IMG/VR virus record: IMGVR_UViG_3300034066_001074
Location: 1 to 39,656 of that record
DNA length: 39,656 bases
Source: a virus
Strand: one strand, 5' to 3'
Positions 3,098-39,656 of this stretch are shown here, in pieces. The notes under the pieces are model-generated. The model was not told the origin of the DNA and did not search any database. It was given only the letters and a program-made list of their open reading frames with translations. The position numbers and the translations under genes are program-made. How positions within the stretch are numbered: position 1 is the stretch's first letter; every line of letters begins with the position of its first letter.

Positions 3098-3397
3098 TTA
3101 GTCGAGTGGGTTAGGCACCTTCACGGGGCTGCCAAGGGCCTCTATTGGCAGTTTAGTTAGCTGTTCAAAAGCATGATGCAGGTCTCTGCGATCATTCATA
3201 AACTGAGATTGCGTTCCCCAGTACAAGTTCACGCTGGTCGCGTCAACGTGGTCGAGGAGGCAGATTGCTGCCCTGAGGTGACCTTCGAGTTCGTTGGCTC
3301 GTTGAGCCAGCCGGCTAATGGTGCGTTTAAGCACTGCAATCTCCTCAGGGATGATTACGTCCCTGATGAGCGAGTTGGTGTGGTGTGTCGTTGTCAT
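3098..3397 (-). CDS. Hypothetical protein (99 aa)
   Basis: ATG 3397 is preferred over an in-frame TTG just upstream. The product is histidine-rich at its start (MTTTHHTNS), then helical with leucine heptads (EEIAVLKRTISRLAQRANEL). It ends LGSPVKVPNPLD. It may be a small regulatory or scaffold-type protein. No family is recognised. It lies just downstream of the replication initiator gene in the same operon. Confidence 0.65.
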   Translation of the reverse strand: MTTTHHTNSLIRDVIIPEEIAVLKRTISRLAQRANELEGHLRAAICLLDHVDATSVNLYWGTQSQFMNDRRDLHHAFEQLTKLPIEALGSPVKVPNPLD

Positions 3398-3430
3398 CAA
3401 AGTTGGTATCGGCTTGGGTCGGCTTGGACT

Positions 3431-4099
3431 TTAGGAAAAGTTTTCAGCCTCTGCTTGCCTGCGCTGTTCCGCAATCGCCTCGTCAGCCTCAGCAGCAATT
3501 GCACGCATCATCACCATGTACGCCCTGTCACGCTCTGGCAGGTGCGAAAAGTCGTGGATAATCTCCGGGTTCTTTCGTGGACCACTGCCGCCCGTCAGGG
3601 GCGGGCAAGTGGGCTGCGGTTCTGCTTTCTTTAATACAACGGCGGGGGCTTGAGGCCCCGCCTTGTATTTGTTCTTTTTCTTATTAAGGTGGGACTTATA
3701 GTCCTTCGGTGGTAGGGACTCACAGTCCTTCGGCAATGTGGACTTATAGTCCCTACGTTGGGACTCACAGTCCCTACTAATCGAGGTCAAAAAAAAGGCG
3801 TTACGGGTGTTCCTGTTGCTTCCGTTTGCGCCAGAAAAGATCCTGACAAGGCCGGCCTTTTGCAGGTCGCCCAAGCACCTCTGGATCGTCTTCGTTGAGC
3901 ACTTCAAGTACTCTGCGAGCTGCTCGTAACTGGCAGCAAACCTCCGTTTGTGGTCAGTCGCTGCTGCGCTCTGGAAGTGGGTAAGGGCGCAGTAAACTGA
4001 GTGATGGTTGATGCCTAGCTGGCCTGCCTGGGCAGCAGCATCTCGTGCTTGCCAGCCCCATGGGCCTTCTTCTCTTGGGTTCTCAGAACGTGGATTCAT
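3431..4099 (-). CDS. Replication initiator-like winged-helix protein (222 aa) with the origin inside the gene
   Basis: ATG 4099 is chosen because it overlaps the upstream stop (ATGA); a TTG three codons earlier is less likely. Residues about 40-105 form a winged helix-turn-helix: AASYEQLAEYLKCSTKTIQR then CLGDLQKAGLVRIFSG, of the kind found in phage and plasmid replication initiators. Residues about 110-145 are encoded by four 13-bp palindromic iterons and give a repeated KDxxS pattern (DCES, DYKS, DCES, DYKS). A lysine-rich stretch (NKKKNKYK) follows, then a proline-rich linker and a helical tail. The gene lies immediately after the helicase-like gene and one unknown gene. By analogy with lambda O and P22 gp18 it would bind its own iterons and recruit the helicase. 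Specific family membership is not proven. Confidence 0.75.
   Translation of the reverse strand: MNPRSENPREEGPWGWQARDAAAQAGQLGINHHSVYCALTHFQSAAATDHKRRFAASYEQLAEYLKCSTKTIQRCLGDLQKAGLVRIFSGANGSNRNTRNAFFLTSISRDCESQRRDYKSTLPKDCESLPPKDYKSHLNKKKNKYKAGPQAPAVVLKKAEPQPTCPPLTGGSGPRKNPEIIHDFSHLPERDRAYMVMMRAIAAEADEAIAEQRRQAEAENFS
3663..3773. other. Putative replication origin: four 13-bp palindromic iterons beside an AT-rich tract
   Basis: GGACTTATAGTCC at 3692-3704, GGACTCACAGTCC at 3716-3728, GGACTTATAGTCC at 3740-3752 and GGACTCACAGTCC at 3761-3773 share perfect GGACT/AGTCC arms with a 3-bp centre that alternates TAT and CAC. Start-to-start spacing is 24, 24 and 21 bp, about two helical turns. An AT-rich purine/pyrimidine-biased tract (3663-3690) abuts one side, followed by a 7-bp GC hairpin (3641-3647 with 3656-3662). 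This matches the lambda ori plan of iterons plus an AT-rich tract within the initiator gene. Confidence 0.75.
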
Positions 4100-4647
4100 T
4101 TCTCGCAACTATAGACTGTTTCTTGCAATTTCAACTTTGGTAGCGCATCTGTCGTGAAGCTACGGTCAATGAAGCGCACTCTGTTGGTGGGCTGGATCGT
4201 TAGCCGGCCACAATCGAGCTGCACAAAGATAAACTCCTTGTCCTGATCCGGGCTGTCAGACCAGCCGTCGTGCATGTGAGCAGTCGAAAAAAGGTATTGC
4301 CCATGCGAAATTACGTCGGTTTTTAGCCTTACACTCACCTCCATTCCACGCATAATCGGGTTTTGGAGCACTGCAAAATGGTAGCTGTAGCAGTCCCAAA
4401 GCTGGGCATTACTGATGTTCCATTCCTGCTTCGGACCTGCTGTGAATGAGACAGCATGAGGCGGGATGTTCCTGTACAAGGCGCCCCCGTCTCGCAAGAT
4501 GACATTGATGCCCCATGCCCGCCCGGGAATAGATGTCAGGCCCACCCACATGGCTTCTACGAGGCCACAGGGCTCTTCATGAGTGTACTGACTGTCCACC
4601 CATATGTAGCGGTGTGTTGGTAGTGCTCCGATCTTTGTGTAGTTCAT
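4096..4647 (-). CDS. Unrecognised conserved-looking protein in the replication operon (183 aa)
   Basis: The product begins MNYTKIGALPTHRYIWVDSQ. It is beta-rich with many aromatic residues (WGINVILRDGGALYRNIP, YSYHFAVLQNPIMRGMEVSV), and has no membrane or signal segment. Both ends overlap neighbours as ATGA (start on the helicase stop at 4644-4647, stop on the initiator start at 4096-4099), so it is translated in step with replication proteins. Position suggests a role in replication, such as a helicase loader or accessory factor, but the sequence shows no AAA+ or J-domain motif. No function is assigned. Confidence 0.7.
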   Translation of the reverse strand: MNYTKIGALPTHRYIWVDSQYTHEEPCGLVEAMWVGLTSIPGRAWGINVILRDGGALYRNIPPHAVSFTAGPKQEWNISNAQLWDCYSYHFAVLQNPIMRGMEVSVRLKTDVISHGQYLFSTAHMHDGWSDSPDQDKEFIFVQLDCGRLTIQPTNRVRFIDRSFTTDALPKLKLQETVYSCEK

Positions 4648-5984
4648 CGTCTTCTTTTTGATTTCTCTTCGTCACTTTCGATAATTGGTTTTAAGCATTG
4701 CTGCCAAATCATGCCGTGTTTCTCAGGAGTAGGGCTGTGGCGAATGTAGATCTTTGAAGTGGGAATCCCTTTCTCAAAGCACCTGATGTCGGAGCGCAAT
4801 CTGCGTTTAGTCATCGTCAGACTACACGTCAAAGGGTCTTTATCAGGCGTCTCAACCCGCTGCAACGTGATGACCTCACGCGCCCAGTTAGTCAATGCAC
4901 TCGATCCAAAGCCTGCATAAGCTAGGTCTGAGTCCGTCTTTGGACCGTTCTCTCTTGGCTTTGGAAGGTGATGAATGACTGCCAAAAGTACACCTGTCTT
5001 AGTGCTGATCCTGTTGAGTTCGTTACAGAACTTCGTCACTACTGCTTGGTCACTGATGTCATCTCCCAAGTAGCACATCAGTGGGTCAATCCACACGATG
5101 TCTGGCTGATGCTTGATGACAAGAGTCTCTAGCACCCTGATGAAATCCTGTCCTGAATGGACGTTGTCCCGATAAAAGACAAGCCTCTCATTCAGTAGCT
5201 GCCGCTCAGTCTCTCCACATTGGTGCTTCCCATACTTGCAAAAGACAGATTGCAAGATCTCAGCCTGATCGCCCTGGTCGTTCTCGGCTTGAAGGATCAG
5301 ACTCTTTAGTGGCTTGACCGGCGTGAGCCCAAAGGTGAGCACATGTGAGAAAGCACCAATCCCGTGGAGCGCCCAGCCTATTGCCAACTGCATCGTCAAG
5401 CTGGACTTCCCGATACCAGACTGAGCATTAATGAGCACACTCCCGCCCTTACACAGCCAGCGGTTGCCGATCAGTGTGTTGCTATCGTTCTCTGTATCAT
5501 AGGCCAATAGGTCATTGAACGTAGACTGTACTATAGAACCCAGCCCACGTTCAGCATTGGCCGCCAGCGTTGCCACGCTCAGGCCCGCGACAACCTCTTC
5601 TGTGGCTTCTCCGGCCGAGATGGCCTTAGTAGCCTTCAGGACAGCAGAGAGCAATTCCCTGCGCCGGGCTGCGTCTTGAACCAGTTCGCACCAGCTCGGT
5701 AGCGGTTCAAGAGAGGGCATTGCCGTTGCAAGCTCTGTGAGGAGCGCATACGCAATACCCTTCTTCGCTAAGTGCGTTGCCAGACCAATGGGGTCAAGGC
5801 TCAGGCCAGAACGTACGCCTTCCTGTACGCCGGCGTAAATGGCGCCAAACTGTGGGTTATGAAAGTCGCTTTGGGTCAGCCCCTTTGCGACTAGGGTAGG
5901 CAGTGCCGTATGAGGTGCAAATAACAGGCACCCCAGCACCGCCCGCTCGGCTTGCTCAGCCTGCGGGATGGTTAGGTCTCTCAT
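4644..5984 (-). CDS. Replicative helicase-like ATPase: DnaB N-terminal domain plus RepA/AAA_25-type core (446 aa)
   Basis: Residues about 5-110 resemble the DnaB N-terminal domain (PQAEQAERAVLGCLL, then FHNPQFGAIYAGV), which binds primase or forms the hexamer collar. The C-terminal RecA-like core has Walker A AQSGIGKSS (about 187-195), Walker B PDIVWIDPL (about 294-302) and a sensor-like VIHHLPKP near 337, in the style of the plasmid hexameric helicase RepA. It would unwind the origin with the initiator encoded downstream. No separate primase is seen, so a host primase is probably recruited. The C-terminal tail is basic (EEKSKRRR). Confidence 0.85.
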   Translation of the reverse strand: MRDLTIPQAEQAERAVLGCLLFAPHTALPTLVAKGLTQSDFHNPQFGAIYAGVQEGVRSGLSLDPIGLATHLAKKGIAYALLTELATAMPSLEPLPSWCELVQDAARRRELLSAVLKATKAISAGEATEEVVAGLSVATLAANAERGLGSIVQSTFNDLLAYDTENDSNTLIGNRWLCKGGSVLINAQSGIGKSSLTMQLAIGWALHGIGAFSHVLTFGLTPVKPLKSLILQAENDQGDQAEILQSVFCKYGKHQCGETERQLLNERLVFYRDNVHSGQDFIRVLETLVIKHQPDIVWIDPLMCYLGDDISDQAVVTKFCNELNRISTKTGVLLAVIHHLPKPRENGPKTDSDLAYAGFGSSALTNWAREVITLQRVETPDKDPLTCSLTMTKRRLRSDIRCFEKGIPTSKIYIRHSPTPEKHGMIWQQCLKPIIESDEEKSKRRR

Positions 5985-26376: not shown

Positions 26377-27840
26377 TTAGCGATTAAACGCCACGCCATT
26401 GAGCGTGACGATACCTGTTGTGCCGCTAACGCCACAGGTCAAGTTAGCCGAAGGATTTGCCACCGAGGTCAACGTCAGGTCATTCGACCCAATATTGATG
26501 CTCTGCGGCTGCGTCCAAGTATCCAGGTCGGCAGACCCGGAACTGAGCAGTGTTACGTCAGTGGTTCCGTCTGGAAGCTGCGTTGCTGCCTGAGTCATGG
26601 CGCTGTCGCCAAACCAGTTAGCAAGCGTGCCCCAGTCGTTTCCAGAGCTGGCGTAGAAGTAGGCCCCAATCACGGGAGTGGTGTTGCCTCCACCACCCCC
26701 GCCATTAAAACCCGAGAACGTGCCTCCGTCCAAAGTGCTGTTCTCAGTGAGAATAACACCCGAATCGGTGGGAACGGAACCAGCGCCGATCAGGCCGCCG
26801 GTGATCGCAACGTTGTTTGCATCCTGTACAGACATCGTGCCCAGGCCAGCAATCGAGCCTTCTGCACTGGTGAGGCGGGAGTCAAGGTTCTGACCTTCGA
26901 GAGTCGAAACCCGGTCACTCACGTCTTCGATGTCGCTTTCAAGCGAGCCCTGAGCTGAACTAACAGCCGAGCTGATTTTGCTATCCACTTCAGCGGACGA
27001 GTCAACGCTCAGGTTCGAGCGGGAAGCAGCAGCGTCAGCAAGGTCGCTGAGATTTGCAGCGATCTTCAGGGACGCATCAGCGCCAGCCTGCGCGGTTGCA
27101 GCGGCCGAAACGGCGCTATCGGCAGTGGACTGCGCGGCATCAGCAGCCGATTGGGCTGCGTCTGCAGCAGACTGAGCAGCGTCAGCGGCGCTCTGGGCAG
27201 CGTCGGCCGCGCTCTGAGCAGCTACAACATCGCTCTGAAGAGCGTCAACTTCGCCTTCAGCAGTCGAAAGACGGGAGTCAAGGTTCTGCCCTTCCAGCGT
27301 GTCAACGCGGGAAGAAACAGCAGCGATGCTGGAAGCCAGCGCGGTTGCGACGTCAGAGCCAGCGGCCAGAGCGTCAGCAATTTCCTTCAGGGTGTCGAGC
27401 GTCGCAGGACTCCCATTGATCAGGGCTGCGATGGCGGCGTCCGTGTAAGCGTCAGAGGCGCTTTTGGAGGTCGCAATCTTGCCGTCAACTTCAGCAGAGC
27501 TATCAACACTGAGGTTGGTCCGGGCAGCAGAAACGCTGGCGAGATCACTCAGGTTGGAAGCGATCTTCAAGGAAGCGTCTGCACCAGACTGAGCAGCAGC
27601 GGCTGCCGTCGTCAGCGTGTCAAGAGCGCCCTGAAGGCCAGTGACATCAGAAATCGTGTGGCTGTGTACCGCACGAGCAAAGGCAGAAGCACTCTCAAAG
27701 GTGATGATCGTGCCATCAGTCTTTTTGATGAAGAGCTTCCCGTCAGCCGTGTTAAGGGCAATTTGGCGCAGAGGCAACTCTGCGGACGTTGGGACAACGC
27801 CAGAAGTGGCGCTATACTTAAGTAGGAACTGGTTAGCCAT
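26377..27840 (-). CDS. Coiled-coil tail fibre with internal duplications (487 aa)
   Basis: The N-terminal motif LRQIALNTADGKLFIKKTDG with HSHTISDVTGLQGALDTL is typical of phage fibre heads. Residues about 208-242 are five tandem AQSAADA heptads. Two larger blocks are duplicated: GADASLKIASNLSDLASVSA (about 86-122) with GADASLKIAANLSDLADAAA (about 253-289), and VSSRVDTLEGQNLDSRLSTA (about 175-194) with a near copy at about 307-326. After a GGGGGG hinge (about 380-385) a globular C-terminal domain follows (VIGAYFYASSGNDWGTLANW). It is probably a trimeric fibre with a receptor-binding tip. Confidence 0.8.
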   Translation of the reverse strand: MANQFLLKYSATSGVVPTSAELPLRQIALNTADGKLFIKKTDGTIITFESASAFARAVHSHTISDVTGLQGALDTLTTAAAAAQSGADASLKIASNLSDLASVSAARTNLSVDSSAEVDGKIATSKSASDAYTDAAIAALINGSPATLDTLKEIADALAAGSDVATALASSIAAVSSRVDTLEGQNLDSRLSTAEGEVDALQSDVVAAQSAADAAQSAADAAQSAADAAQSAADAAQSTADSAVSAAATAQAGADASLKIAANLSDLADAAASRSNLSVDSSAEVDSKISSAVSSAQGSLESDIEDVSDRVSTLEGQNLDSRLTSAEGSIAGLGTMSVQDANNVAITGGLIGAGSVPTDSGVILTENSTLDGGTFSGFNGGGGGGNTTPVIGAYFYASSGNDWGTLANWFGDSAMTQAATQLPDGTTDVTLLSSGSADLDTWTQPQSINIGSNDLTLTSVANPSANLTCGVSGTTGIVTLNGVAFNR

Positions 27841-30893: not shown

Positions 30894-32162
30894 TTAGACC
30901 TGGCCGAACAGGATGATCCCGCTCATTTCAGGCTGCTTGTTCACAACTCCGAAGAGCGTGTCGAGCCTGTAACGGGTCTTCATCGTGTTGATGTCGTACT
31001 GCTTCTGCATGACCAGTTCGATGCCCTGATCGGTGGAAGCACGCATCACGTTTGCGCCGGCGTCCGAAGGCACTGCATAGCGACCGGGGAGGATTTCGAT
31101 CGCGTCCTTCTGCCAGAAGCAGTTGATAGGAGCTGCCGCAGTGTTAAGGAACACAATGGCGCTGTTGGATGCCTTCGTGTTGACCACACAGTTCTGGTAC
31201 TCAGCCGAAGCTGCAGCAGGAACCTGGTTGGACACGATGCCGGGGCTAATCACCATCTGGGTGCTGTTGGTCACGCTGATGACGCGGAAGGTCTTCAACT
31301 GGCCAGTGTCACCCTTGGTGATGTGATGCACTGCATTCACAGCAGCGATCGTGAAGCAGTCGCCAGCGGCAACGCCGGTCGTGCTCGACACGGTCACCGT
31401 CTGGTAGCGGTTGTCCACGTTGAGGCGCTCTGCGGTCGTCGGGGACGAGGTCACCGCTTTCGGAATCTGGTAGTTGTTCGCGGAGTCGCGAGTGTCGATG
31501 GTAATGCTAGAGCCGGCAGCAGCACCAATACGGTTCGCATAGTCCATCTTGAAGGTGTCGAAGCTCGCGACCTGGCCGATGTAGGCGCGGTCGTAAGCGG
31601 TCAACGCCTTACCAGCCAGCGTCTGACGGCCGGCGAGGTTGTTCGCCATGCCGTTGTAGTCGCGGGTCGAGAGCGCCAGATAACGCGAATCGAAGTTCAC
31701 GCCCTGCTCGTTGAAGATGGCTTCGCACTGGGCGACGTCATCAAACCCGGTAGCAGCCGAGAGGCGCTTCACAACGAGTGTTCCCTGAGCGGAAGCCACG
31801 TTGAGGACTGCGACGTTGATGTCGGACGCCAGCTTCTGCTTGGCCGAGTCACCGAGGCGCTGTTCCTGAAGGGCGTCACGCAGTTCAGTGGCCGTCATAA
31901 TCCACGGCACAGACTTGTTGAAGCCAATCGTCGCGGGGACGGAGAGCTGGGTGTAATCAAAGAAGTTCGAGGTCATATCAGTGCCCGAGTACGAGCGGCT
32001 GATATAAGGCTGCGGCCTCCAGATGGTGTTGTTGGTGCGTTCCATCATCGTCTGATCCGTGGTGTAGATCGAGACGTTGCGGGACAGGACAAGGGCGTCT
32101 TGGAAACCTTCAAGGAGGTTTTCAAATGCTACCCGTTCTTCTTTGCTAAATGCGTTAGCCAT
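30894..32162 (-). CDS. Major capsid protein, P22 coat (gp5) family (422 aa)
   Basis: The product matches the P22 coat pattern: an N-terminal helix, NTIWRPQPYISRSYSGTDMT, a long helix with KLASDINVAVLNVASAQGTL, and NVDNRYQTVTVSSTTGVAAG then NCFWQKDAIEILPGRYAVPS. Length is close to P22 gp5 (430 aa). The insertion domain region appears between about 225 and 345. The protein assembles with the scaffold encoded just upstream. The leader AAAAACCAATCCTAGTAT has no Shine-Dalgarno sequence despite the high expression expected. Confidence 0.9.
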   Translation of the reverse strand: MANAFSKEERVAFENLLEGFQDALVLSRNVSIYTTDQTMMERTNNTIWRPQPYISRSYSGTDMTSNFFDYTQLSVPATIGFNKSVPWIMTATELRDALQEQRLGDSAKQKLASDINVAVLNVASAQGTLVVKRLSAATGFDDVAQCEAIFNEQGVNFDSRYLALSTRDYNGMANNLAGRQTLAGKALTAYDRAYIGQVASFDTFKMDYANRIGAAAGSSITIDTRDSANNYQIPKAVTSSPTTAERLNVDNRYQTVTVSSTTGVAAGDCFTIAAVNAVHHITKGDTGQLKTFRVISVTNSTQMVISPGIVSNQVPAAASAEYQNCVVNTKASNSAIVFLNTAAAPINCFWQKDAIEILPGRYAVPSDAGANVMRASTDQGIELVMQKQYDINTMKTRYRLDTLFGVVNKQPEMSGIILFGQV

Positions 32163-33051: not shown

Positions 33052-35067
33052 CTATTGCATTGGCTGCGCAGGCTGAGTCAAACGATCAGCAAGCGCAAAG
33101 ATACGGTCCTGATCGGTTGTGCTGACCTTGGAAAGCGTCTCAGTTGTCTTGGCGCGTGCCTCTTCAGCTTTAGCAACAGCAAGAATACTGTCTGCTTGCG
33201 CTTTAGAAGCCCGTGCAATGGCTTCTTCACTCGCAGCCTGCAAGTACTGCGCCTGCGGGTCAGGCTGGGCATTCTGAGCCGCTATAGCCATTTCCTGCGC
33301 CTCTGCCTCTGTAGGCTTGAGAACTCCCATCATGAGAAGCTTCTTACGGAAGTAGTCGCGAACATCACTGATCCCTTCGCCTTCCATGTTAAGCATAGCC
33401 ATAGCAGAGAGCACCTGAGTCATCTCAGGGTCTTGAGTCATGGTCATCATGTCGGTTAGCGCCCGTACAGTAGCGAGCCGCTTAGTGGAGCTGGCAGGGC
33501 CAACAGTGACGACAACATCGTATTCGGCAGACGACATGTCGTTTTCGTACTCGATCTCGCCTTCTTCATTGACGACTGGCTTCATTAGCTCGATTGGCTC
33601 CATCTTGCCAGACTCGTGAACGGTCTTCATCTTGCGGCCTTCTTCGATGAAAATGTCACGAGCGATAGACAGCCAGATTTCGCCACAACGCTTCACAGCC
33701 TTTGCCATGTTAGACATGTAGATGAAGGTCTGCATGTCAAGCCGCTGCTGGACGAGTTCAACGGTCTTGCCAGAGAGATGACTCACCATCTTGTCTCCCT
33801 GCCCTGGGGAGCCGAGGATCTCTTGCATGTCTACTTCAGTCAACTGAAGGAGAGCAGCCATAGAGGGCGGCAGAGCGGGAGGCTTAGTGTAGGCCACGGG
33901 ACCAGCCGCCATGGGGTTGCCATTGGCGTCGGTAAGCGTGTTGATGAGCAGGTAAGGGTAGTTCTTGAGGTTATCCTCTGCCCACATCAACTGGTGTCCC
34001 GCCACCTGTTCAGGGACGAGGATCGGCTTCTCCATCGCAGAGAGCGCACTGATCTCGCCCAGCTTGGAAAGCTGCATGTTCTTAAGGCGCTGGGCGTCCT
34101 TTGCCAGCCTGACGTGCCCCATGCAACGCTCGACGTTGTCTACGAACCAACGCTTCCCGTACACGGGGATGATGGGGATGTTCTTGCCGGCGATGTACCC
34201 ACAGTCTTCAAGGATCTTTGCCCCTGACATGATGTACTTACGCACCTTGCGCGTCTTAACCTTCTTGCGCCGGACTTCTTTCCAGCCAGTGGCAAGCATT
34301 TCCTCTTCCTTGTACAGTTCTTCCGGCCGGAGCGACTCTTCTTCGCCATTGAAGTCCTTGTAGATACGAATCTGCTCAGAAACTTCCTCCACCTTGTAGT
34401 ACTCAGCGACGTAGACAACAGAGGGTGTATACCAGTCAAACTGGGAGCGCGTAATCGTCTTGGGCCAGGTCGCGGGGTCATCGTCGTACTCAGCCTTGTA
34501 GGCTTCACGAGTCATGCTGGTGAGCACAAAGCACCGCTTGGCATCTGCCTTATCCTGCCGCTTGGCGCCTAGGTCGAAGTAGACACTTGTATCAGCGTCG
34601 AAGATTGGCTCAATACAGACACGCTGCTTGTCGTCCTCCGGGTCTTCTTCGTTCTGGTACTCAGTCCTCAGCCTCCAAGCCCCGAAACCACCCATAACAG
34701 CCTCTTCAAAGGCATTGTCGTAGGCTTCCTCTGCCCCTGAGTCCTGCTCATCTGCCCTGTAAAGACCGGCACAAGTGTCAGCGAGTTTGTCGTACTCTTC
34801 TCCTTCTTTGGAAGAGAAGTTCACTGTGATCCGATTATTACGATACTCGTTGATGATCCGAAGCACCGCCATGTGGATCTTGTTTACCTCGAACCTAGGC
34901 TTGTTCTCAAACTGATCGCCAAGAGGGCCTTCCCATTGTGCGCCTGCCAGCGAGCAAAACCTACGGTCACCAAGGCAGTTCATGCGCTCTTGATACATCG
35001 CACCTTGGATCTGGTCGAACTCTGCCCTCGCAGCTTGGTGGATTAGGGAAAGTTTATCTTCGTTCAT
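33052..35067 (-). CDS. Portal protein, P22 gp1 family (671 aa)
   Basis: The segment CSLAGAQWEGPLGDQFENKP then FEVNKIHMAVLRIINEYRNN, and DEQDSGAEEAYDNAFEEAVM with GFGAWRLRTEY, are typical of P22-type portals (P22 gp1 is 725 aa). The C-terminal residues about 575-660 form a helical barrel (NAQPDPQAQYLQAASEEAIA, AKAQADSILAVAKAEEARAK). It forms the dodecameric DNA channel and docks the terminase. Its start overlaps the terminase stop (ATGA). Confidence 0.9.
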   Translation of the reverse strand: MNEDKLSLIHQAARAEFDQIQGAMYQERMNCLGDRRFCSLAGAQWEGPLGDQFENKPRFEVNKIHMAVLRIINEYRNNRITVNFSSKEGEEYDKLADTCAGLYRADEQDSGAEEAYDNAFEEAVMGGFGAWRLRTEYQNEEDPEDDKQRVCIEPIFDADTSVYFDLGAKRQDKADAKRCFVLTSMTREAYKAEYDDDPATWPKTITRSQFDWYTPSVVYVAEYYKVEEVSEQIRIYKDFNGEEESLRPEELYKEEEMLATGWKEVRRKKVKTRKVRKYIMSGAKILEDCGYIAGKNIPIIPVYGKRWFVDNVERCMGHVRLAKDAQRLKNMQLSKLGEISALSAMEKPILVPEQVAGHQLMWAEDNLKNYPYLLINTLTDANGNPMAAGPVAYTKPPALPPSMAALLQLTEVDMQEILGSPGQGDKMVSHLSGKTVELVQQRLDMQTFIYMSNMAKAVKRCGEIWLSIARDIFIEEGRKMKTVHESGKMEPIELMKPVVNEEGEIEYENDMSSAEYDVVVTVGPASSTKRLATVRALTDMMTMTQDPEMTQVLSAMAMLNMEGEGISDVRDYFRKKLLMMGVLKPTEAEAQEMAIAAQNAQPDPQAQYLQAASEEAIARASKAQADSILAVAKAEEARAKTTETLSKVSTTDQDRIFALADRLTQPAQPMQ

Positions 35068-36512
35068 CTCTTGAAAAAGTTAATCACTGGCATCACAAAA
35101 GAGCTATTCTTCTTTGTACCATACTTAGACGGAATAGCAGCCCTACTCAAGCCACTTACTACCAAATACCGTGTTGCGTCCATCAAATGGTCATTATCTT
35201 TTACAACACGCCCCTTTTCATCTCTGCGATAAAGGCGAAATTCCGATAGCCAGTTGCGAAGATTTGGGAAAACACGAAGCTTGCCGGCTGACATCGTCTG
35301 CCAAACCGTGTACAGCCCGCTCTCGACGGCGTTGTTCGCCAAAGTTATGTCGAGACCGTGCCTGCGATACATGCCAAGAAGCTGCTGCCCGTCAGTCTGC
35401 GCTCGACCGCGACTGGCTGGATCAATTACCCCCGGCATCTCGCCACGGGCTTTGATCGCTTCAGCGTGCAAAATCGGCTCTGCTTGGCCGCGATAATACT
35501 CTGAGTACAGATACGTCACTTCTGTATCCGGGTTAGTAGCGCCCCAGACGACAGCAGTCCTGTTCCAGCCTACGTCCATGCCGTAGCACCTCCTCCAGTG
35601 CTCAGGGATAGCAAACTCTTCACAAATGAGTTCACTCTCTGGCACAGGATAAATGGCCCCTGCTCCAAGCTGTGGGACGCCTTTAGAACGAGCGTCCCTT
35701 TGGAAGGGTGGAATAGACGCCCAAAGCTCGTCCTTCTGTTGTTTAGTCAGGTGCGGGACATCGTCCCACGTCGCCATGCCAACGTACTTACTCCCTGAAG
35801 CCTGCTCTTGGACTTCACCATTGGGCATAAACGACATGACTGTCTCACTCATCCCCATAAGAGGCGTGAAGGTGAGCATCGTCATCCCGTTGTTGGTCAT
35901 CGTTCTAAGCAGACACTCTGTGTAGACATCCAGAGGCGGCTCTTCGTCCAACCAGATCACATCCTGTTCAGAGCCCTGAAACGCTTCCCGGCGCTGATCG
36001 TAGGACTTGAATGTAAGGCGAGACTCTCCACCTGAGGCATGGCGAACAGTAATGACTTCAATAGCTTCTGCTACGCCGGCCTTGGCAGTAGTCTTGATGA
36101 GATCAGCCTTAGGAATGAGTCCTGTGCCAAACTCCCCAGGCGGCCCAAGTAACTTCATCTGAAGAATGTCACGAGTCGTCTTGCCGGTGTCCCCCGCTGC
36201 CCAGGCACTAATGGGTTGGTCAAACTTCCTGCCCTTCCACCAAGCGGGATACCTGCCAGTCATATGCAGCACCATCTCGTACCCGCCGATACTCTCAGTC
36301 TTGCCGATACGGTTGGCAGCCATCATAAGGCGCTCACGATACCGTGCCCCAGCCTCGAAGTAAGCGATGTGCTTGGGATACAGTTCACGCCGGTACTCGC
36401 CAGTGTCAGGAAAGTAAGTACCGATCTTACGCTCCTTCCGGCGCCTTAGAGACTCTTCAAGCAAGAGAGTTAGCTCTAGGTTCTTGTCGAGATTGTCGAG
36501 AAGATCACTCAT
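35064..36512 (-). CDS. Terminase large subunit (482 aa)
   Basis: The ATPase has a Walker A variant ANRIGKTES (66-74) and Walker B DVIWLDEE (184-191). The C-terminal nuclease has YGMDVGWNRTAVVWG (acid at about 313), VIDPASRGRAQTDGQQLLGM and DNDHLMDATRYLV. These are the usual acids of headful terminases. A strong terminator hairpin ends only 2 nt before its ATG, so expression must depend on readthrough, antitermination or a promoter overlapping the hairpin. It couples to the portal by ATGA. Confidence 0.9.
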   Translation of the reverse strand: MSDLLDNLDKNLELTLLLEESLRRRKERKIGTYFPDTGEYRRELYPKHIAYFEAGARYRERLMMAANRIGKTESIGGYEMVLHMTGRYPAWWKGRKFDQPISAWAAGDTGKTTRDILQMKLLGPPGEFGTGLIPKADLIKTTAKAGVAEAIEVITVRHASGGESRLTFKSYDQRREAFQGSEQDVIWLDEEPPLDVYTECLLRTMTNNGMTMLTFTPLMGMSETVMSFMPNGEVQEQASGSKYVGMATWDDVPHLTKQQKDELWASIPPFQRDARSKGVPQLGAGAIYPVPESELICEEFAIPEHWRRCYGMDVGWNRTAVVWGATNPDTEVTYLYSEYYRGQAEPILHAEAIKARGEMPGVIDPASRGRAQTDGQQLLGMYRRHGLDITLANNAVESGLYTVWQTMSAGKLRVFPNLRNWLSEFRLYRRDEKGRVVKDNDHLMDATRYLVVSGLSRAAIPSKYGTKKNSSFVMPVINFFKR

Positions 36513-36640: not shown

Positions 36641-36805
36641 TCATACTTTCATCACTAAAACTTTGTACTCGACTCCATCGTCTGGGCCGCCTTCCAGCTC
36701 GAAGGTGAACTCTTCGTAGTCCATGTCTCGTTCGATCGAGTCCATCAAAAGCGAGTAAGCCAGGTCAGCGGCTTTCTGAGGTGGGGTAGCTGGTTCTAGT
36801 TCCAT
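36641..36805 (-). CDS. Small acidic hypothetical protein (54 aa)
   Basis: ATG 36805 gives MELEPATPPQKAADLAYSLL then MDSIERDMDYEEFTFELEGG and DGVEYKVLVMKV. A longer upstream frame runs through the hairpin repeats and is not credible. The product is alpha then beta with an acidic centre. It lies between the structured RNA region and the terminase. No family is recognised. Confidence 0.65.
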   Translation of the reverse strand: MELEPATPPQKAADLAYSLLMDSIERDMDYEEFTFELEGGPDDGVEYKVLVMKV

Positions 36806-36842
36806 GAAATTGGTCTGCGTGTTTGTCAGATGCGCAGCCCCT

Positions 36843-37026
36843 GGTCTGTCTCTCCAGACTGTCACGCCTCTAAGAGGTGCGTTCCCCACGACTCACACGT
36901 CAATCGCTGACGAAGCTGTCTCTCCAGCTAGTCACACCACTTGCATCGCCGCAGGTGTCGCTGTCTATGGCCGTCTCTCCGGTTGTCACACCACTCAACC
37001 AAACGGGCCTAAGCTAACGGTTGGTG
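36843..37026 (+). ncRNA. Three tandem structured-RNA motifs (unrecognised)
   Basis: Each copy is a hairpin with the constant loop TCTCTC: GTCTG/CAGAC at 36844-36859, AGCTG/CAGCT at 36914-36929, and GGCCG/CGGTT at 36969-36984. After 0-1 nt each is followed by GTCAC and A/G-CC, and then by a second hairpin closing at GGTG. The stems differ in sequence but keep pairing, and copy 3 uses G-U pairs that work only if the plus strand is RNA. Copy spacing is 70 and 55 bp, so the copies fall in different frames and are not coding repeats. It is the plus strand of the region upstream of terminase. No known RNA class fits. Confidence 0.5.
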
Positions 37027-37068
37027 CTGTCCGGCATGGAGCCAGAGGCAGGTGTCGCGGAAGTAGTG

Positions 37069-37110
37069 GCCCGCCGGTTTGAGGATGCTTGCGCACTAGC
37101 CTTGGCGGGC
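37069..37110. other. 7-bp GC stem-loop downstream of the 116-aa gene
   Basis: GCCCGCC (37069-37075) and GGCGGGC (37104-37110) are exact inverted repeats around a 28-nt loop, which itself contains GCTTGCGCACTAGC. No T-run follows on either strand. It lies just past the stop of the 37122-37472 gene and next to the tandem RNA motifs. Confidence 0.55.
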
Positions 37111-37121
37111 TCTAGAGAAAA

Positions 37122-37472
37122 CTAAGCAGCGGCACTAGGGTCCAAGACTACGGTGGCCGGGTCGTCCAGAATAGCCTGAAGCTCTTGGGGGATGACGGGG
37201 GTAGCCTCTGGGGTGATGCCGGCCTCTGGGGTGAGTGCCACTAGAAAGGCGTCTACACTGGCCTTGATAGCCTTGAGCGCCTCACGCTGCTCTTCGACCT
37301 TAGCCTCCAGCGTAACCCTGCTCCTGCGCACAGCCTTCTCTTGCCGAGTCTTTACAGACTCAACCATCCAGGCTGCCTTAAGGGCTGCACTAACGGATTT
37401 CTTTAATGCACTAATCTGGGGATTAGTTTCTTTGCGAGTACGAGGCTTACGGGTCTTAATGAGTGTTTCCAT
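37122..37472 (-). CDS. Basic helical protein near the terminase genes (116 aa)
   Basis: ATG 37472 gives METLIKTRKPRTRKETNPQI then SALKKSVSAALKAAWMVESV, a coiled-coil-like VTLEAKVEEQREALKAIKAS, and ends DPATVVLDPSAAA. The basic start and helical core suggest DNA binding or an oligomeric packaging accessory. It lies between the putative small terminase and the large terminase genes. An extended frame upstream runs through G/C-run hairpins and is rejected. No family is recognised. Confidence 0.65.
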   Translation of the reverse strand: METLIKTRKPRTRKETNPQISALKKSVSAALKAAWMVESVKTRQEKAVRRSRVTLEAKVEEQREALKAIKASVDAFLVALTPEAGITPEATPVIPQELQAILDDPATVVLDPSAAA

Positions 37473-37715: not shown

Positions 37716-37765
37716 ACCACAACCTGTAGTGGTTACCCTACCCTGACACCACAACCTGTAGTGGT
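37716..37765. promoter_or_regulatory. Pair of identical 18-bp palindromic sites
   Basis: ACCACAACCTGTAGTGGT occurs at 37716-37733 and again at 37748-37765, with perfect ACCAC/GTGGT arms and an identical 8-bp centre. The copies start 32 bp apart, about three helical turns, so a protein could bind both from one face. They resemble operator or pac-type binding sites. The binding protein is unknown. Confidence 0.6.
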
Positions 37766-37916
37766 CACCTAGTCCAGACCATTACAGACCGACCCCGACC
37801 CCGACCACCAGCGGTCCAGCGGTCCAGCTATACTCCACCGCATCAGTAGGACATGCATCAGCGTAAGTCCCTGATAATCAGGCAAACGTACTCTACATGA
37901 TATACGTTGTGTGACG

Positions 37917-39474: not shown

Positions 39475-39656
39475 ATGACTACTATCTACTCCAACAAATC
39501 AGAAGCACAGAACCTTATCGCCATGTCTGTAAAGTACATCGGACCAACGGACTACAGAGGCTCGCGCATCAAAATGAGTCTCCCCCGCTTTGAAGAGTCT
39601 CTAACTATCTCTTACGATTACGACGCTAAAGACGCGGAAGACGGCGCTGTTAAGTT
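39475..39656 (+). CDS. Conserved small phage protein, N-terminal part (continues at position 3)
   Basis: ATG 39475 opens MTTIYSNKSEAQNLIAMSVK then YIGPTDYRGSRIKMSLPRFE, and the frame runs off the window end. It continues in register at position 3 and stops at 242 for a total of 98 residues. The leader ATAAACCAAATCCCCAAA has no Shine-Dalgarno sequence and no G. Confidence 0.85.
   Translation, partial: MTTIYSNKSEAQNLIAMSVKYIGPTDYRGSRIKMSLPRFEESLTISYDYDAKDAEDGAVK
39530..39656. repeat. Terminal direct repeat, right copy
   Basis: This is an exact copy of bases 1-127. One copy should be removed before any map or coverage analysis. Confidence 0.95.

Follow-up and report, generated by a model that had tools for sequence, protein, structure and literature searches.

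Three units lying upstream of the terminase gene in a phage genome are, on comparative sequence evidence, genuine members of a family of small structured RNAs that is absent from Rfam. The stretch of DNA analysed here, called the window in the following, is a circular-type virus record of 39,656 nt, whose direct terminal repeat (Table 1) makes it likely that the genome is complete and was assembled as a circle. Its morphogenesis block is on the minus strand, and the units form an array in the gap between two small ORFs of 55 and 116 amino acids, neither of which had a match in a Pfam search. A sequence-only reading had noticed three plus-strand hairpins with a TCTCTC loop and a GTCAC-R-CC tail, and had proposed that they were tandem copies of a structured RNA motif not described before, selected for its RNA structure and lying on the strand opposite the late genes. 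The hairpins, which occupy 36844-36859, 36914-36929 and about 36971-36982, are all present with their tails, and the array, its novelty and the selection were borne out by covariation, by copies in many phages and by the lack of an Rfam match. The assignment to the plus strand was not.

Table 1. Features of the window and of the RNA array
Feature	Position	Strand	Remarks
Direct terminal repeat, 127 nt	1-127 and 39530-39656
Major capsid protein	30894-32162	minus	Part of morphogenesis block
Portal	33052-35067	minus	Part of morphogenesis block
Terminase large subunit	35064-36512	minus	PHROG 2 and 5653
55-aa ORF	36641-36808	minus	Downstream of array in RNA direction; homologues beside arrays in L092, L096, L054, L037
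Unit C, last on minus strand, type 1	36839-36885	minus	36.5 bits, E 3.1e-7 (cmsearch, model R1); P2 ACGC../..GCGU, linker GAC, P1 GUCUG-GAGAGA-CAGAC (36844-36859)
Unit B, type 2	36909-36961	minus	40.6 bits, E 3.5e-8 (cmsearch, R1; unit B is itself one of the 51 sequences training R1); P2 ACACC../..GGUGU, GAC, P1 AGCUG-GAGAGA-CAGCU (36914-36929)
Unit A, first on minus strand, type 2	36964-37058	minus	27.4 bits, E 3.8e-5 (cmsearch, R1); P1 CCG-GAGAGA-CGG; long insert separates P2 arms (56 positions hidden in cmsearch alignment)
abiF-like RNA, RF03085 variant, orphan	37069-37109	minus	cmscan 26.8 bits, E 0.012; gathering score 37
116-aa ORF	37122-37472	minus	Upstream of array; homologues in L037, L054, L096
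22-nt sequence ACCACAACCTGTAGTGGTYACC, twice	37716-37769		Spacing 32 nt; CCAC/GTGG hairpin possible in each

An exact DNA pattern made from loop and tail occurred in at least 120 stretches of IMG/VR, at least 12 of which held two or three copies, as against 40 stretches, none with multiple copies, for a control pattern of the same composition. When a paired P1 and a partner for P2 were required and near-identical flanks removed, 139 dereplicated copies were left, which belong to phages, to prophages and in a few cases to chromosomes. As the search pattern itself prescribed GGAGAGAC for the loop, GTGAC and the two G of P2, the invariance of these elements is in part a product of the search; mEp390, P7641 and Medea1 have degenerate loops (GGAAAGAC, GGAAGAGAC, GGAAGTAGAC). 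In an alignment of 51 sequences 99.6% of the cells were paired, two P1 pairs showed all four Watson-Crick types, and the covariation score of 0.377 compared with 0.117 (sd 0.011) for shuffles and at most 0.105 for slid partners. Covariance model R1, built from this alignment with unit B included, picked exactly the three hairpin units in the window, the next-best match there scoring 8.6 bits (E 0.8). The search for further copies that the earlier reading had suggested as a check, carried out with this model of 51 homologues and the DNA pattern, yielded many in phages. When the window and a set of the loci were scanned with Rfam 15 at gathering and permissive thresholds, other RNAs only were matched; the motif had no counterpart there, ribozyme families included. 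The folding energy of the island alone was ordinary (z of -0.33 on the minus and 0.13 on the plus strand), and the case for the motif therefore rests on the comparative evidence. Two other identities were tried and rejected: Mu-gpT-DE and the other Rfam downstream-element families had no match in the Mu-like loci, and the GA-rich junctions could not be read as kink-turns consistently in all sub-types.

On the minus strand the consensus runs 5'-RAC-RYC, an insert of about 5-110 nt, GGYGU, GAC, 0-3 nt, the P1 stem around G GAGAGA C, and AC. The resulting RNA of about 40-110 nt is modelled as two simple hairpins. Three sub-types can be distinguished by their P2 arms, ACGCC/GGCGU, ACGUC/GGCGU and ACACC/GGUGU; unit C is of the first type and units A and B are of the last. 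The extent of 36843-37026 proposed earlier covered real units but fell short of the end of the third, at 37058: in unit A, CACC pairs with GGTG near 37050, and the GGTTGGTG hairpin on which the earlier reading relied lies inside the variable insert. In two Anaerolineae loci (L197, L178), units with inserts of about 110 nt are interleaved with mini-tRNA-like sequences consisting of an acceptor stem and a T-arm without a D-arm.

Several observations indicate that the family RNA belongs to the minus strand and has the same orientation as the genes. On that strand 98 of the 139 copies have C-G at pair 4 of P2 and the other 41 have U-G; a plus-strand reading turns these 41 into C-A mismatches within an otherwise intact helix. 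Since the copy filter permitted the U-G type, the test was repeated without an assumed partner on 126 copies, within 60 nt and against a control stretch. GGCGT (69 versus 10 in the control) and GACGT (33 versus 7) were enriched, the plus-strand alternatives GCCGT (13 versus 15) and GTCGT (5 versus 8) were not. Flanking gene pairs were minus-minus in 71 cases and plus-plus in 17. Neighbouring tRNAs were all on the minus strand, mostly 6-15 nt downstream of the RNA, and three Vicinamibacteria chromosomal copies carry on the minus strand a promoter-like TTGACA..TACTTT before and an intrinsic terminator after the motif. Upstream of the plus-strand reading, -10-like hexamers were not enriched in the dereplicated copies. 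P1 is equivocal on this point, its few wobbles favouring plus. The earlier statement that G-U pairs occur only on the plus strand is literally correct for copy 3, but the family-wide wobble points to the minus strand. Lying in sense with the late genes, the RNA would be neither an antisense RNA, which would be found on the strand opposite the genes, nor a stop to head-on transcription, the two roles first suggested for it.

The hosts range from Proteobacteria to Cyanobacteria, Chloroflexi and Acidobacteria, and phage-plasmid-like plasmids carry the motif as well. In whole-record searches, most phage genomes checked had one cluster each, often an array, at unrelated places. Caulobacter phage phiCbK has three copies within one tRNA region of its 216-kb genome, MD18 and CS01 have one copy, MinM2 has two near each other and the window three together; in G352 a fourth copy is found about 5 kb from the main cluster. 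Arrays of 2-4 units occur in the window, L079, L067, L092, L037, L084 and others. The motif fills the gap between the lysis genes and terS in Providencia PSTCR3 and Vibrio 10N.286.54.F2, follows small genes just before terS or a neighbouring gene in Morganella IME1369_02 and Cronobacter CS01, and adjoins terS homologues in L173, L195 and L231. It lies between tRNAs in phiCbK, Phaeobacter MD18 and Microcystis Mwe-JY26, and after the major capsid gene in phiSHP3. In mEp390, Klebsiella P7641 and Medea1 it is part of an extended leader that is untranslated and separates the repressor from the early genes, an early-leader position like that of put or nut, with a promoter-like site in mEp390; most family members are located elsewhere. 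The genes downstream include those for terS, a head-tail adaptor, a head decoration protein, a minor tail protein and an exonuclease. Pfam or PHROG searches of 182 flanking proteins, supplemented for 82 by PADLOC, showed no protein family or toxin that recurred beyond small counts.

Two local roles were discarded. Terminator-like structures were not enriched around the motif: they followed it in 6 of 139 copies and preceded it in 4 of 139, with none of 139 on the plus strand and 11 of 695 at random positions. A Shine-Dalgarno (SD) or ribosome-binding role of the GGAG in the loop does not fit either, most downstream genes having an SD of their own and other copies standing before tRNAs.

Several of these loci contain further RNAs. 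The phiCbK tRNA cluster with the three motif copies (L246, NC_019405), annotated in the record table with tRNAs alone, also holds a GOLLD RNA (165 bits, 4219-4705, plus strand) and a permuted tmRNA (71 bits, tmRNA* in ARAGORN, 3301-3740, minus strand). In Cronobacter CS01 (L247) a sub-threshold tmRNA-like match directly follows the motif at about 2297-2490 on the minus strand; ARAGORN made no call there, and manual reading of the sequence shows a tag-like ORF, ANDDLMLMAA-stop. The early leaders of mEp390 (L248, 2230-3040) and Klebsiella P7641 (L254, 2390-3110) are unannotated and share other structured modules, for example GGACTGGAAGAGTTACCACTTGGAGACGGTCC.

Cellular copies are rare. Model searches of drawn bacterial genomes found the motif in 1 of 185 and 2 of 149, the large draws having stricter filters by which weak matches were lost, and blastn found no match in E. 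coli chromosomes. The sole match in the drawn genomes besides the seed genomes was a CRISPR spacer. In the Acidobacteria MAG ZC4RG22 (L138, about 100-250, and L267) the motif stands as a spacer between 36-nt repeats GCTTCAACGGAGCCGGTGATCTTCATCACCGGAAAG, and the CRISPR array of this organism targets the phage RNA motif. In three Vicinamibacteria loci (L143, L166, L230) a single chromosomal copy is conserved beside a divergent thioredoxin-like gene, with no toxin nearby; it is possibly a domesticated sRNA. A toxin or defence gene beside the motif was looked for in the cellular genomes and none was found, so that a cognate toxin cannot be named.

The arrays, to judge from comparison of related loci, are modular, mobile and fast-changing between phages. 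Pieces of the window's island recur at 93-95% identity in L084, a fragment in whose stretch no homologues of 23 window proteins were detected at E 1e-6, and at 76-94% identity in L010, L037 and L078, which are fragments as well. In the sister phage L092 (TerL 93%, portal 97% and MCP 93% against the window), four scored units of kinds unlike those of the window (the weakest at 12.2 bits), with one small ORF among them, are accompanied by an abiF-like RNA.

Such an RNA also stands next to the array of the window. Its homologue in L084 scored 26.6 bits, likewise below the gathering score of 37, and all abiF consensus features (stem S1, A-AG..CU, CAAAYC and S1') are visible in the alignment of this homologue. 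The 2.05 Mb of loci contained 11 matches to an abiF-like pattern, distributed over the window and ten further contigs. Each of the 11 had a motif copy no more than 400 nt away and with the same orientation, an association confined to the window and the phages of its circle (11 loci). In Clostridioides difficile, AbiF acts as a toxin and is neutralised by an antitoxin RNA of this kind (PMC12373285). No Abi_2 gene (PF07751), and with it no adjacent abiF or abiD, was found in the window genome or five relatives, and the abiF-like RNA is therefore without a toxin gene of its own. The abiF RNA (RF03085), antitoxin of the AbiF/AbiD toxins (PMC12373285), resembles the motif as a small structured RNA in a phage context; sequence and architecture of the two differ.

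Our leading hypothesis, a tentative one, is that the motif acts in trans as an accessory phage RNA, plausibly as a decoy or antitoxin mimic for counter-defence. The two-hairpin cassette would be co-transcribed with the operon where it has landed, in the window on the minus strand upstream of the terminase gene, would most likely be freed from the transcript, and would then act in trans, its target being a host component of wide conservation, with copies gained and swapped as arrays. A hitch-hiking RNA acting in trans is suggested by the single cluster per genome, the arbitrary operon sites, the arrays, the exchange between unrelated phages and the lack of a protein partner, and a conserved target by the broad host range. 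Fast turnover and the adjacent orphan antitoxin RNA make counter-defence the most plausible purpose, which the motif would serve much like its abiF-like neighbour. There is a precedent in phage PhiTE, which evades ToxIN by means of an RNA that imitates its antitoxin (PMC3475682). Its pseudo-ToxI repeats are, like the motif, tandem RNA units on a phage without its own toxin gene. The ToxI repeat, however, is short and its cognate toxin is known, whereas the motif has covarying stems and long variable inserts, and neither a toxin nor an Rfam family could be matched to it. Of the features of type III toxin-antitoxin systems, tandem RNA repeats are present and an adjacent cognate toxin gene is absent. 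Several observations count against the decoy, among them the failure to find a toxin or defence gene beside the cellular copies and the restriction of the abiF-like link to 11 loci. The single Vicinamibacteria copy with its promoter-like sequence and terminator and with no toxin nearby would fit a regulatory sRNA equally, the put/nut-like position in mEp390, P7641 and Medea1 would fit a role in cis, and the outlying copy in G352 departs from the single cluster.

The main rival to a trans-acting decoy is a put-like antiterminator or anti-pausing element in cis, where the nascent two-hairpin RNA would bind elongating RNA polymerase and allow terminator read-through where an operon is long or untranslated. 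The put RNA of HK022 binds the zinc-binding domain of the RNAP beta' subunit and suppresses termination. The likeness of the motif to HK022 putL/putR (PMC9378689) comprises a size of about 70 nt, two stem-loops, an apical GGA and, in some phages, a lambdoid early-leader site; the motif is always in sense, and untranslated tRNA arrays would likewise require antitermination. Fold and consensus differ, however, most copies lie away from early-operon promoters, and the one cluster per genome is at an inconsistent operon site, be it the tRNA region of phiCbK or the stretch behind a capsid gene. Homology to put was rejected, as a regular-expression and an R1 search of the whole HK022 genome missed put, the best match (12.2 bits, 27128-27161) being inside IS903 and at chance level. 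A terminator directly after the chromosomal copies also speaks against read-through, and on balance we regard this explanation as unlikely, though a serious competitor. We see about the same small chance for an RNA that would act in trans as regulator or sponge of a conserved host factor unrelated to defence, such as the ribosome, RNA polymerase, an RNA-binding protein or an mRNA. All evidence for trans action applies equally here, the flanks of the Vicinamibacteria copies suit it, the loop holds an SD-like GGAG, and tRNA, tmRNA and GOLLD RNAs share phage RNA clusters with the motif. The mosaic arrays of sister phages and their fast turnover are better suited to an arms race, and the tolerated loop changes (GGAAAGAC, GGAAGAGAC) run contrary to simple base pairing.

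A processing or mRNA-stability element between cistrons, for instance a nuclease site separating cistrons and tRNAs, seems improbable to us. The intergenic gaps, the short distance to tRNA 5' ends and the location shortly upstream of start codons would be in line with it, but the motif is mostly restricted to one cluster per genome and unlinked to particular genes, and tandem arrays and horizontal exchange would be left unexplained. We hold even less of a packaging RNA or part of a packaging site upstream of terS, as had also been suggested from the sequence. The copies before or beside terS listed above invite this idea; the pre-terS position, however, is seen in only part of the family, contrary to the fixed link to the packaging locus of a phi29 pRNA-like molecule, and in many phages (phiCbK, MD18, phiSHP3, mEp390) the sole cluster lies elsewhere, be it among tRNAs, behind a capsid gene or in an early leader, and the motif stands next to many kinds of genes. 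Least credible of all is a plus-strand RNA that would be antisense or would block head-on transcription, for which the G-U pairs of P1 in copy 3 would speak and against which stand the P2 wobble, the partner-free test, the strands of the neighbours and the complete lack of plus-strand terminators.

Resemblance to other phage RNAs is limited to their company. GOLLD RNA, known from phage tRNA/tmRNA clusters and found in the same RNA cluster as the motif in phiCbK, is several hundred nt long and ornate and has no relation to the motif in sequence or structure. HDV-like ribozymes are nested double pseudoknots. Theta ribozymes, which are of this HDV-like kind and occur in phage tRNA arrays (PMC10879173), are like the motif small RNAs next to phage tRNAs, but would differ in fold from a motif modelled as two simple hairpins.

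In conclusion, the motif family is new to Rfam, which is unexpected for an RNA this abundant in phages (a single scan with an exact pattern gave at least 120 contigs). Its arrays may belong to a set of RNA-based tools for counter-defence. The fuller picture, a new and widespread class of phage RNA whose arrays are exchanged, serve as decoys or antitoxin mimics in trans and form one counter-defence island with the orphan abiF-like RNA, is slightly more doubtful than the decoy role as such. If the motif is a decoy, phages would assemble islands of RNA-based counter-defence and the motif would provide a handle to their host targets; if it is an antiterminator, a put-like system would extend far past HK022.
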